Below are positions 1 to 10,821 of a stretch of 36,252 nt of DNA, in pieces. Origin of the DNA: Fimbriimonadaceae bacterium (GTDB lineage: Bacteria > Armatimonadota > UBA10988); the NCBI GenBank assembly GCA_020850355.1, contig JADZEX010000092.1, positions 1 through 36,252 on the forward strand, written 5' to 3'. The translations under genes and the position numbers were made by a program. The number at the start of each line of letters is the position of its first letter. Position 1 is the stretch's first letter. The notes beneath the pieces were generated by a model, which worked only from the letters and a program-made list of their open reading frames with translations, did not search any database and was not told where the DNA came from.

Positions 1-155
1 CGAGGGGGAGTCGGAGCCGGTCTGAAGAGGAGCGGAACCTCTCCCCCTAGCCCCCTCTCCGCCGGCGGCGAGGGGGAGTCGGAGCCGGTCTGAAGAGGAG
101 CGGAACCTCTCCCCCTAGCCCCCTCTCCGCCGGCGGCGAGGGGGAGTCGGAGCCG
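1..155. repeat. 68-bp tandem near-palindromic repeat, 2.3 copies seen
   Basis: Two full 68-bp units (1-68 and 69-136) are identical and a third begins at 137 and matches for 19 bases. The array runs off the left edge, so its copy number is unknown. Each unit boundary contains an almost perfect inverted repeat: CCCCCTCTCCGCCGG followed by CGGCGAGGGGG, centred near 63-67 and 131-135. This resembles REP-like or mosaic extragenic palindromes that follow genes in many high-GC genomes. It lies just downstream of the last gene of the phoH block (minus strand), so the transcribed RNA could fold into a terminator-like stem. No coding potential is claimed. Confidence 0.85.
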
Positions 156-5599: not shown

Positions 5600-7084
<1,485 letters not shown>

Positions 7085-7102
<18 letters not shown>

Positions 7103-8497
7103 GGCCGCGCTGAAGTTGCCCGGCCCGCGCTGTCGGCGGGGCGGCCAGCAGCCGCGGTAGGCTGGCTGCGGCACCTGCCAGACCAGCGCGGCGGCGGCGG
7201 GCCGGCCGGCGGCGTCGAGCTCGACCGGGCCGAACTGCGTGCTGCCGTCCCAGACACCGGCCGGCGCGGCGCTCGGGTCGGGCAGCATCTGACCGCCCCA
7301 GACCCAGGCGCCGGGTTCCAGCCAGCAGGCCAGCAGACTTAGCCGGCTGTCGGCGCCGACCTCCAGCCGGCGACCGGCGCCAGTCAGCAGACAGCGGTCC
7401 AACCGCATGGTCGCCTGCCGCAGCACTGGGGTGACGTGCCGGCCGGTGACGTGTCGCAGGACCGCCGTCCCATAGATCTCCAGCCGGCCCGGCCGCTGTG
7501 CTGTCGCCTCGAACAGGCAGTGGCTGGCAACCAGGGTCGGGCGCGCGAGCGGGTCGCTCTCGGCCGGGTCGCCGGCCAGCGACTCGCCGGGGCGCAGGGC
7601 CAGCGGGGTGCCGTTGGCGGCAGCGCGGCAGTCGTCCAGTTGGTGCAGCCCGCCGTCGAACTGGAAGCCGAACTCGACGTTGTCGTGGCACCAGGTGTTG
7701 TGGTAGCTGCTGCGGCAACGGGTGACGTCGGCGACGCCGTTGTCATTGCCCCAGAACTCGGCGTCGCGGACGGTGATCTCGATGGTCTCGTGCGAGCTGA
7801 TCCCCTCGTCCATGTTCTCGCGCCCGACAACCCGTTCGCAGACCAGGTCGCGGCCGTCGCCATGGAGGTTGAAGCCGTCGTTCCAGTGGCGTTGGGCGAT
7901 CAGGTTGCGGAAGATCCAGTGGTCGCTCCGGCCGCCCAGCCGGACCGCCGCGTCACGCACGCAGATCTCGACGCGCGGCGGGGTGGGGGCCGTGGTGCAG
8001 ACGGTCACCTGACCGGCGCGCCAGGTCCATTGGCCCGGCTGCAAGTCGGCCGGCGCCGGCAGCGACTCCGGCTTGCCGCGGTGGGTCGGCAAGCGGCCCT
8101 GCCTCCAGAACGCCCCATCGACCACCACCGCCTCCGGCATCGTCGCCACGGCGACCGTCCAGCGACCCGCCCCCGCCGGCTGCACCGCGGCGGCTGGCAA
8201 CGGGTCGCAGCCGTCGATCACCGCGCCATGGCCGTCGATGCCGATGGGCTGCCCCGGCTCGCCGCAACGGTCGAACAAGACGAACTGCTGGCGGTAGTGG
8301 CCGGGCTGCAGCTCGATCCAGTCTCCCGGCCGCGCCACCTCGACGGCGCGCCGAAAGGTCGCCAGCGGCGCGCCGGCGGTGCCGGCAGCGTTGTCCTGCC
8401 CGGCGGGGCCGACCCACCAGGAACGGGCGGGGACGGGGTGGCTGGACAGCCAGAGGACGATTCCAGCGGACAGCCATCCGCGGGAGCCAGTCATCAC
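7085..8497 (-). CDS. Secreted right-handed beta-helix protein
   Basis: 470 aa. The first 25 residues look like a signal peptide (WLSAGIVLWLSSHPVPA), so export is likely. Next comes the DUF1565 or pectate-lyase-like start WVGPAGQDNAAGTAGAPLATF and AVEVARPGDWIELQPGHY, then repeated short beta-helix rungs such as DHWIFRNLIAQRHWNDGF and AEFWGNDNGVADVTRCR. This fold often binds or cleaves polysaccharides; I see no catalytic set that fixes a reaction. The start may be GTG 8497 (7 nt after GGAG) or ATG 8494. The stop lies inside the 3' end of lysS. A carbohydrate-related role is inference. Confidence 0.82.
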
Positions 8498-8549
8498 GTC
8501 TCGTCTCCGGCACTAACGGGCATCTATCGCCGTGCTGACCATTGCTTCG

Positions 8550-8744
8550 CCACGGGTTCCGAGAATCCGTGGACAGGAGTTGGCAGTTGCAGTTGAGGAG
8601 TGTCGGCCACCGCGCCGGGACGGGACGCCTGGGAGCCAGTCGGCCGAGACCCGCCGGGCCTCCCGGCGCGCCGCCCGGCACACCGGGCGGCCGATCAGCC
8701 CTCGCGACGAGTTCAGACGGAGCCCCAGCAGTCGGGGCTCCGTC
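8550..8744 (+). other. Highly structured intergenic region, possible RNA element
   Basis: The 335-bp gap between two divergent genes holds four strong inverted repeats: CCACGG at 8550-8555 with CCGTGG at 8567-8572; a perfect 10-bp stem CGCGCCGGGA at 8611-8620 with 8661-8670, enclosing 40 nt; GCCGCCCGG at 8670-8678 with 8683-8691 around a CACA loop; and an 11-bp stem at 8716-8744. No reading frame here looks coding. The order, structured domain then terminator-like stem then gene, suggests a leader RNA or small RNA for the plus-strand operon, but no known class is identified with confidence. Confidence 0.45.
8716..8744 (+). terminator. Terminator-like hairpin before the phosphoesterase operon
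   Basis: GACGGAGCCCC (8716-8726) pairs perfectly with 8734-8744 around the 7-nt loop AGCAGTC. On the plus strand it is followed by GCCGTTTGG, a weak T run. A terminator between divergent genes implies a transcript that starts upstream within the gap, so it could be an attenuator. Confidence 0.5.
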
Positions 8745-8832
8745 GCCGTTTGGGGATCCGGCGCGACAGCGAGCCTGCGAGTCCGGTGGCGCTGCACGGG
8801 AAATGAAGCCACCGGCAGAATGGACGGAGAGC

Positions 8833-9639
8833 ATGACGACGCTGGCCTGCAATGCGGTCTTCCTCTCGGACCTTCATCTGGGTGCCTGCTGGAGCGACAC
8901 CAACGCCCTGTTGGCGGTGCTGCAGCAGCTCCGCCCGCGGCGGCTCTATCTGGTTGGCGACGTGGTGGACTTCGCCCTGCTGCGGCAGTTCCCACAGTGG
9001 CCGGCGGCCGGCACTGCCGTCTTGCGGGCCCTCTTGGAACTGGGGCAGGCCGGGTCGGAACTCATCTGGTTACCGGGCAACCACGACGACTGCTTGCGGC
9101 ACCTCGGCCGACTCCGGCTCGGCAGCCTGGACCTCTGCGAGCAGGTGGTGCACACGACCGTCAACGGTCGGCGCTACCTGGTGCTGCATGGCGACCAGTG
9201 CGATGGCGTGGTGACCCGGTATCCCGGCCTGGCCTGGCTGGGCGGCCTGCTGCACGATCGCGCCTACCGGTTGCTGCGTTGGCTGCAGCCCCGCCTGTCA
9301 GCCCGCCGGCGCACTCCGAGCCTGGTGTCGCGGGTCAAGAGCTGGGTCAAGCAGGGCTGCCTGGGAATCTCCGCCTACCGTGAAGCGCTGCTGCTGAGGG
9401 CCCGCCAGGCTGGCGCGGACGGGGTGATCTGCGGCCATGTTCACAGCCCGAGTCACGACGTCTTCGATGGTGGGATGGAGTATCTCAACTGCGGCGACTG
9501 GGTGGAGAACTGCACCCTGGTGATCGAAACGATGGATGGACGGCTGGAGTTGCTTCGCTGGGACGAGGCCGCCGGGCTGCAGCCGCTAGCGACGGCTGCC
9601 CCGCAGCCGGTAGCGGAATTGGCGCTGGCTGTCGAATAG
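8833..9639 (+). CDS. LpxH-like metallophosphoesterase
   Basis: 268 aa. Calcineurin-type phosphoesterase with the ordered metal motifs FLSDLHLG (D13, H15), GDVVDF, GNHDD, LHGDQCD and CGHVHSPSHD. The family includes UDP-2,3-diacylglucosamine pyrophosphatases (LpxH), but related enzymes act on other phospho-lipids or nucleotide sugars, so the substrate is open. I chose the ATG at 8833 (GGAGAG just upstream) because the catalytic motif starts at residue 10; ATG 8803, 10 codons earlier, is possible. It heads a four-gene unit and the GT4 starts 18 nt after its stop. The context suggests a role in making or trimming a lipid-linked glycan. Confidence 0.85.
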   Translation: MTTLACNAVFLSDLHLGACWSDTNALLAVLQQLRPRRLYLVGDVVDFALLRQFPQWPAAGTAVLRALLELGQAGSELIWLPGNHDDCLRHLGRLRLGSLDLCEQVVHTTVNGRRYLVLHGDQCDGVVTRYPGLAWLGGLLHDRAYRLLRWLQPRLSARRRTPSLVSRVKSWVKQGCLGISAYREALLLRARQAGADGVICGHVHSPSHDVFDGGMEYLNCGDWVENCTLVIETMDGRLELLRWDEAAGLQPLATAAPQPVAELALAVE

Positions 9640-9657
9640 GGTGCTGGGAGCCGCATC

Positions 9658-10821
9658 GTGCGAGTCGCACTCTTCACCGACACCTTCGACCAGGTCAACG
9701 GCGTCGCCAACACCTTTCGCCGGTTCGCAGACCACTGCGCCGCGCGGGGCGTTGAGCTGGCCGTCTTCACGGCCGGCACCCCGGCCGGCCGGGAGCAGCG
9801 TGGCAGCGTGAGTATCGCCCGGTTCCGGCCGGTGCTGCCGCTGCGCTACTACGAGGAGCTGGTCTACGACCTGGCCCCGCGCCCCGATCTCTGGCACGCC
9901 GTAGCCGCCGGCGGGTACGACCTGGCGCACCTCGCGACGCCCGGAGCGGTCGGCTGGCACGGCTGGGCGGCGGCCCGCTGGCTGGGCCTGCGGTGCGTGG
10001 GCTCTTACCACACCGAGCTGGATCGCTACACCGAGCTGTTCTTCGCGCGGTGGCTGGCTGGCTGGCCGCCTGCGGTAGCGCCGGCCGTGCGCGCCGGGCG
10101 TTGGTGGATGCAGCAACAACTGCGGTCGTTCTACCGGGCTTGCGCGGTGGTGCTCGTGCCGTCGCCGAAGACCAGGGCGCAGGTGACCGCGATGATTGGC
10201 CGGCCGGTCGGCTACTTCCACCGCGGGATCGACTGCAGCCGTTTCGATCCGGCGCGCCGCCAGACGGGAGCACTACCGCGGGTGCTGTATGTGGGGAGGC
10301 TGTCCGTCGAGAAGAACCTCCCACTGCTGGCGCGCCTGGCGGAGCTTCGGACGCCCTGCGAAATCCACCTTGTCGGCGATGGACCGTGCCGCCGCGAACT
10401 GGCGTCCGCTCTGCCGCAGGCGGTCTTCCCTGGCTACCTGTTCGGCGAGGAGTTGGCCACCGCCTACGCCTCTGCCGACGTGTTCGTCTTCCCGTCGCTC
10501 ACCGACACGCTCGGCAATGTGGTGCTCGAGGCCAAGGCTTCGGGCCTGCCTGCCGTGGTCCTGGACGCCGGTGGGCCGGGCAGCCTGCTGCGTCATGGCG
10601 AGGACGGCTTCATCGCCCGAGACGCCGACGACCTGGTGGCCCGCATCGACTGGCTCTTGGCCCACCCGGCGCAGCGCGCCACGATGGGCCAGGCTGCTCG
10701 CCGGAGCGTGCTACAGCGGAACTGGGAGCGGATCTTCGATGACCTCCTCGACACCTATCGCGCCGTCCTCGCCGGAGACACTGGCGACGGCGTATCGCAT
10801 CAGACCTTACCACCGCTCTGA
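9658..10821 (+). CDS. Glycosyltransferase family 4
   Basis: 387 aa. GT-B retaining glycosyltransferase that moves a sugar from a nucleotide donor to a lipid or glycan acceptor, probably at the cytoplasmic membrane face. The N-terminal Rossmann domain starts VRVALFTDTFDQVNGVANT, with a GSYHTELDRY acceptor-side segment. The donor domain has RVLYVGRLSVEKN and the signature FPSLTDTLGNVVLEAKASGL. These fit the subgroup of MgtA, PimB and SqdX-like enzymes that glycosylate diacylglycerol or phosphatidylinositol. Start GTG 9658 follows GGGAG by 7 nt. The 3' end overlaps the GNAT gene. The acceptor is not known from sequence. Confidence 0.93.
   Translation: MRVALFTDTFDQVNGVANTFRRFADHCAARGVELAVFTAGTPAGREQRGSVSIARFRPVLPLRYYEELVYDLAPRPDLWHAVAAGGYDLAHLATPGAVGWHGWAAARWLGLRCVGSYHTELDRYTELFFARWLAGWPPAVAPAVRAGRWWMQQQLRSFYRACAVVLVPSPKTRAQVTAMIGRPVGYFHRGIDCSRFDPARRQTGALPRVLYVGRLSVEKNLPLLARLAELRTPCEIHLVGDGPCRRELASALPQAVFPGYLFGEELATAYASADVFVFPSLTDTLGNVVLEAKASGLPAVVLDAGGPGSLLRHGEDGFIARDADDLVARIDWLLAHPAQRATMGQAARRSVLQRNWERIFDDLLDTYRAVLAGDTGDGVSHQTLPPL

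Follow-up and report, generated by a model that had tools for sequence, protein, structure and literature searches.

The gap between two divergent genes at positions 8498-8832 of the window, the whole stretch of 36,252 nucleotides that was analyzed, is rich in inverted repeats. A first-pass annotation had read these repeats as a candidate structured RNA or attenuated leader ahead of a glycan operon, with a terminator-like stem just before the first gene. This raises the question of whether transcription is terminated in the gap and, if so, whether the terminated RNA is a leader that controls the operon.

All four inverted repeats of the first-pass annotation, including the perfect 10-bp stem around 40 nt, were found where it had placed them (Table 1). 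Their strength is uneven: the 11-bp stem at 8716-8744 is the strongest, the hairpin at 8550-8572 is also good, and the others are weaker. The 11-bp stem is the sole perfect stem of at least 10 bp with a loop of up to 10 in the 36-kb window, and when the gap was shuffled with dinucleotides preserved, 1 of 400 sequences reached 11 bp. For the segment 8498-8715 alone, a 9-bp stem with a loop of up to 9 arose in 6 of 400 shuffles, and a 10-bp stem with a loop of up to 45 in 12 of 400. The long stem of the core (8611-8620/8661-8670) contains 10 perfect pairs around 40 nt, and the local stem 8670-8678/8683-8691 contains 9 pairs with a loop of 4. The G+C content of the gap is ~57% over the first 100 bp and 70-90% thereafter. 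By codon-usage scoring, no plus-strand frame in the gap scores as coding, and one minus-strand frame has a score of just +0.26 bits per codon, confined to a short segment. The reading frame of the phosphoesterase stays open upstream of its start, but codon usage is poor there. ATG 8833, preceded by GGAG, is the better start, with the in-frame ATG 8803 as an alternative.

Table 1 Features of the divergent gap and the adjoining genes, in window positions.
Feature	Position	Strand	Description
Lysyl-tRNA synthetase gene lysS	5600-7102	+	Overlaps the 7085-8497 gene convergently
Divergent neighbor, secreted beta-helix protein	7085-8497	-	Weak DUF1565 match; likely ATG at 8494
Divergent gap	8498-8832		Between the beta-helix protein gene (-) and the phosphoesterase gene (+)
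Hairpin	8550-8572	+	Arms 8550-8559/8563-8572, 10 pairs (one G-U), loop 3
GC-rich core, alternative folds	8597-8694	+	Long stem 8611-8620/8661-8670, or local hairpins, e.g. 8670-8691
Terminator hairpin	8716-8744	+	Arms 8716-8726/8734-8744, 11 perfect pairs, loop 7, -23.6 kcal/mol
Tail GCCG-TTTGGGG (GCCGTTTGGGG)	8745-8755	+	TTTGGG is the top enriched hexamer behind hairpins in the genome
PlcP-like calcineurin-type phosphoesterase	8833-9639	+	Pfam Metallophos; relatives, gene order
Agt-like GT4 glycosyltransferase	9658-10821	+	Pfam; order as in Pelagibacteraceae

The hairpin at 8716-8744 starts 117 nt and ends 88 nt upstream of ATG 8833 (84 nt for the terminator copy in the TTTGGG survey described below). 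A scan for canonical terminators calls none here because the tail, GCCGTTTGGGG, has no T run, only three T. The stable GC-rich hairpin of an intrinsic terminator is present but the ~5-8 T directly after the stem are not, so we describe the element as a terminator-like variant and not as a canonical member. After TTTGGG(G) had been seen repeatedly downstream of hairpins in gaps, the enrichment of TTTGGG was tested against all hexamers. Within 8 nt 3′ of a perfect hairpin of at least 9 bp, TTTGGG occurs 11 times in 1.56 Mb of the genome versus 0.16 expected (P 5e-17), the window's own hairpin being counted among the cases, and it ranks first. The hexamer TTGGGG occurs 8 times versus 0.4 expected in the same 1.56 Mb, and permutations of TTTGGG mostly lack such enrichment. 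With a looser stem and 1.90 Mb of the genome, 14 cases of TTTGGG were found versus 0.54 expected, again the strongest enrichment of any hexamer.

The positions of these sites relative to genes indicate their function. There are 42 TTTGGG in the gaps of the 1.90 Mb, and 21 of them have strong folding just upstream. Among these 21 sites, 13 lie 50-118 nt past a same-strand stop codon (8 of the 13 at 50-57 nt), with the reservation that genes were called by a simple codon-usage script and single contexts can be wrong. Some of the 13 have a convergent gene next. Of two further sites, one lies behind a short ferredoxin-like ORF and the other behind a gene truncated at the edge of its locus. Because most of the sites sit 50-118 nt after stop codons, we take the TTTGGG class to be transcription terminators. 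In clear cases, TTT ends about 7-8 nt past the stem, as in intrinsic terminators, and polymerase may stop at the T-to-G boundary.

The class appears to be concentrated in one family. In the family member G001 (369 kb), TTTGGG again ranks first, with 3 cases versus 0.12 expected, and across 688 kb drawn mostly from other phyla it ranks far lower (2 versus 0.42). A covariance model, R1, was built from 11 members including the window hairpin, with the TTTGGG tail, and thus favors that tail. It finds 13 sites in the genome itself and 18, 4, and 11 in three other family members, where the sites again mostly follow stop codons. The model finds none in the relative from the order, and 0-2 per genome in 36 others from the phylum. 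Because the R1 members were chosen for their stems, counting pairs in their alignment is circular and was not used as evidence. The only strong R1 match in the window is 8716-8755, at 30 bits, itself a member of the training set. Separately, two equal-scoring weak hairpin matches lie 68 bp apart at window positions 44-75 and 112-143, probably a short direct repeat. Taken together, the hairpin 8716-8744 with its tail is very probably an intrinsic terminator in a lineage-specific form, in which a strong GC hairpin is followed after about 4 nt by TTTGGG(G) where a long T run would be expected. The first-pass reading of a terminator-like stem thus gains support from a tail, TTTGGGG, that marks gene-end terminators in the genome and the family.

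The RNA upstream of the terminator gives a different picture. The segment 8550-8744 folds with z = -4.4 on the plus strand, due mostly to the two outer hairpins, and -4.3 on the minus strand. The z is -3.2 for 8550-8715, -1.7 for 8573-8715 (9 of 200 shuffles equally good), and -1.9 for the core 8597-8694 (10 of 200 equally good). A rod-like fold is predicted at 8586-8708, ahead of the terminator. A structure model of 8586-8712 found no significant match in the order and none in the family. DNA searches of 60 relatives found no homologues of the region beyond short GC-rich chance matches. The DNA similarity hits L002, L004, and L005 are GC-rich stretches of 25-65 nt, and L002 and L005 overlap long ORFs. 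No copies of the hairpin or gap sequence that would indicate a repeat family were found elsewhere in the genome. Until the 3′ arm has been transcribed, the 5′ arm of the terminator could pair with about 8554-8561. The best partner that this arm finds upstream does not exceed what shuffles offer (89 of 200), so no antiterminator is claimed. The GC-rich core is not convincingly more structured than shuffles, and a structured RNA beyond GC-rich composition is not supported. The same holds for a structured sensor RNA in the leader, though one may exist. The candidate structured RNA of the first-pass annotation is therefore not confirmed, with marginal z for the core and 8573-8715 and a structure model that has no homologue.

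The comparison with Rfam, which the first-pass annotation had proposed as a check, assigned the gap to no family: nothing was found at curated thresholds, and chance-level matches alone at E up to 10. The gap contains GCCAC, GGGACGG, and AGCCAG...GAGACC in an order similar to that of the cobalamin riboswitch (RF00174), but its B12-box-like part is interrupted by 6 nt. The cobalamin covariance model gives it no score at E up to 10, and the gap aligns poorly with two true cobalamin riboswitches on other contigs of the genome, which score about 85 bits each. Declining to call this class despite the motif order was thus correct. For the T-box (RF00230), the window has no covariance-model match, and its leader lacks the UGGNACC antiterminator sequence. 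6S RNA (RF00013) has no match at E up to 10 on any contig of the genome. TTTGGGG also occurs inside intrastrand triplex motifs (PMC4666352), but the stems here do not fit these motifs. Two tandem AAAAGGGTCCTGACCCCTTTGGGG units at L140:10820-10880 (+) resemble a triplex-type repeat, and tandem repeats with a GGCCCCGCTTGCGCGGGGCC hairpin lie beside a tRNA-Val gene at L176:13100-13504 (+).

The window copy is not at a gene end and stands alone in its divergent gap. Three other class members in divergent gaps, in L113, L151, and L143, are likewise unattached to a gene end. The one in L151 closes a T-box leader before leuA (L151:3140-3401, minus strand, equal to C42:163140-163401). With 76 bits (E 7.5e-17), this T-box falls short of the Rfam cut-off of 93, and it is one of five T-box matches in the genome, all on other contigs than the window. 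Because a TTTGGGG-tailed terminator closes this leader, the TTTGGG form serves attenuation in the genome, which also strengthens the terminator reading of the window hairpin. Upstream of the terminators are TTGACA-N17-TACCAT in L151, TTGACA-N18-TACGCT in L113, and GTGACG-N17-TACCAT in L143. The pattern TTGAC-N17-19-TANNNT is a reliable and specific promoter sign in this genome: 97 gap sites face a same-strand gene versus 5 oriented the other way, and 10 occur in 1.76 Mb of coding sequence. The promoter-like sites in L151, L113, and L143 and the T-box in L151 indicate that a divergent-gap terminator with no gene attached to it tends to have a promoter upstream in the same gap, and that in at least one case it is part of an attenuator. 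In the window gap, no sigma-70-type promoter was found on either strand, including the stretch between 8755 and the start codon.

Other gaps of the genome contain similar arrangements. At L113:10523-10860 (-), an M50-type protease gene is preceded by a divergent-gap leader that contains the TTGACA promoter-like site, a Shine-Dalgarno sequence, AAAGGAGGTGATCC, a 14-codon ORF, and the TTTGGGG-tailed terminator; it may be a small ORF leader. At L142:18180-18640 (+), a candidate gap transcript contains AAAGGAGG, a 17-codon ORF, and a TTTGGGG-tailed terminator, with no same-strand gene nearby. A prepilin-like FPVFAKAREKAR sequence is also present in the genome and points to an armatimonadote as the probable organism.

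The genes downstream of the terminator form an operon of the PlcP-Agt type by gene order, with predicted enzyme activities. The order of metallophosphoesterase and GT4 glycosyltransferase is the same as that of plcP-agt in Pelagibacteraceae and several other Proteobacteria. PlcP-Agt type, with a metallophosphoesterase and a glycosyltransferase, is a better description than glycan operon. Orthologues of the phosphoesterase are absent from the family members, and those in the phylum are about 32-41% identical. The presence of the pair at 8833-10821 while the family lacks the phosphoesterase suggests gain or repeated loss.

How, then, is the terminator used? Its isolated position in a divergent gap makes a role in the 5′ leader of the operon most likely, and from within the leader it may act as a switch. 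That it works there as an attenuator is, in our judgment, slightly better than an even prospect; a leader attenuator or, more broadly, a short RNA starting in the gap is likely. Transcription would start within about 8498-8600, where the gap is richer in A+T; it is this base composition that leads us to expect a promoter in the first 100 bp. Most transcripts would end near 8751 as short RNAs, roughly 150-250 nt long, and under some condition polymerase would pass the terminator and transcribe the operon. From the genes, low phosphate would be a natural guess for the signal. The complete scenario, in which a new leader RNA controls a phospholipid-to-glycolipid remodeling operon by premature termination at the hairpin-TTTGGG element with T-to-G release, seems unlikely to hold in every part. 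As for a leader or small RNA controlling the operon, as proposed in the first-pass annotation, the terminator part is supported and the structured RNA part is not.

The main rival, and a serious one although we rate it as somewhat unlikely, is that the hairpin insulates the operon, stopping antisense read-through from lysS, with the operon starting downstream of 8755 or being unattenuated. The start of a transcript within the gap, which the first-pass annotation took to be required, is therefore likely but not forced. The overlap of lysS with the convergent gene at 7085-8497 leaves no space for a terminator directly behind lysS, and R1 gives no good plus-strand match other than 8716-8755 between lysS and the operon. 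The layout of L113 is similar: a plus-strand gene stops 22 nt short of a convergent gene, and a divergent gap with a terminator follows. However, terminators in this genome typically lie 50-118 nt past the stop codon and not 1.6 kb, the stretch from 8755 to the start codon lacks a promoter-like site, and in L113, L151, and L143 the gap that holds the unattached terminator also holds a promoter-like site.

The terminator might instead mark the end of a separate structured RNA, about 150-250 nt long and acting elsewhere. Such a free-standing small RNA gene would account for the hairpin at 8550-8572 and the rod-like predicted fold that precede the terminator, and for the z of 8550-8715. The lack of any Rfam match in the gap or 6S match in the genome, the lack of a family homologue by DNA or structure model, and the marginal value of the core alone make it quite improbable. 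Still less probable, and in our view very improbable, is that the repeats are chance or non-transcriptional GC-rich hairpins, such as a repeat remnant. The resemblance of the core to composition-matched shuffles and a G+C content of up to 90% would fit this explanation, but the 11-bp stem, unique in the window, has behind it the very tail by which terminators in the genome are recognized, and the sequence has no copies elsewhere in it. We favor a terminator acting as an attenuator in the leader of the operon, or one that ends a short RNA from the gap.

If these conclusions are right, standard predictors overlook a form of terminator in use in an uncultured high-GC bacterial family. Operon maps and attenuator searches in the family would then be incomplete, and the TTTGGG tail would be a simple finder. 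Terminators away from gene ends would point to leader regulation; one of them proved to belong to a T-box below the Rfam cut-off. It would also become testable whether a strong hairpin followed by a T-to-G boundary can do without the U tract. We found no description of a TTTGGG terminator tail in the open-licence literature.

Compared with known systems, the element resembles canonical Rho-independent terminators in its strong GC hairpin, in the spacing of about 7-8 nt between the stem and the presumed release point, and in the occurrence of its class behind stop codons and between convergent genes. It differs in having only three T and then GGGG, in the conservation of the TTTGGG tail, and in being invisible to the standard scan. 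Terminators poor in U tracts have been described in high-GC bacteria, and a GC-rich genome and a short or missing U tract are common to both; here, the tail is a specific TTTGGG, strongly enriched and found mainly in one family. The T-box leader in L151 and the window leader are both divergent-gap leaders with a TTTGGG-tailed terminator (TTTGGGG in each) at the end, whereas the window leader lacks a T-box sequence or a known ligand. In Pelagibacteraceae and several other Proteobacteria, the plcP-agt pair takes part in the replacement of phospholipids by glycolipids under phosphate starvation, with Pho boxes predicted upstream (PMC4796936). A metallophosphoesterase followed by a GT4 glycosyltransferase is found in both that lipid-remodeling operon (PMC4796936) and the window, whereas the window pair is followed by an acetyltransferase-like gene, so named by reading its sequence, and a GT2 gene, and its proteins are about 35-44% identical to the nearest relatives found.
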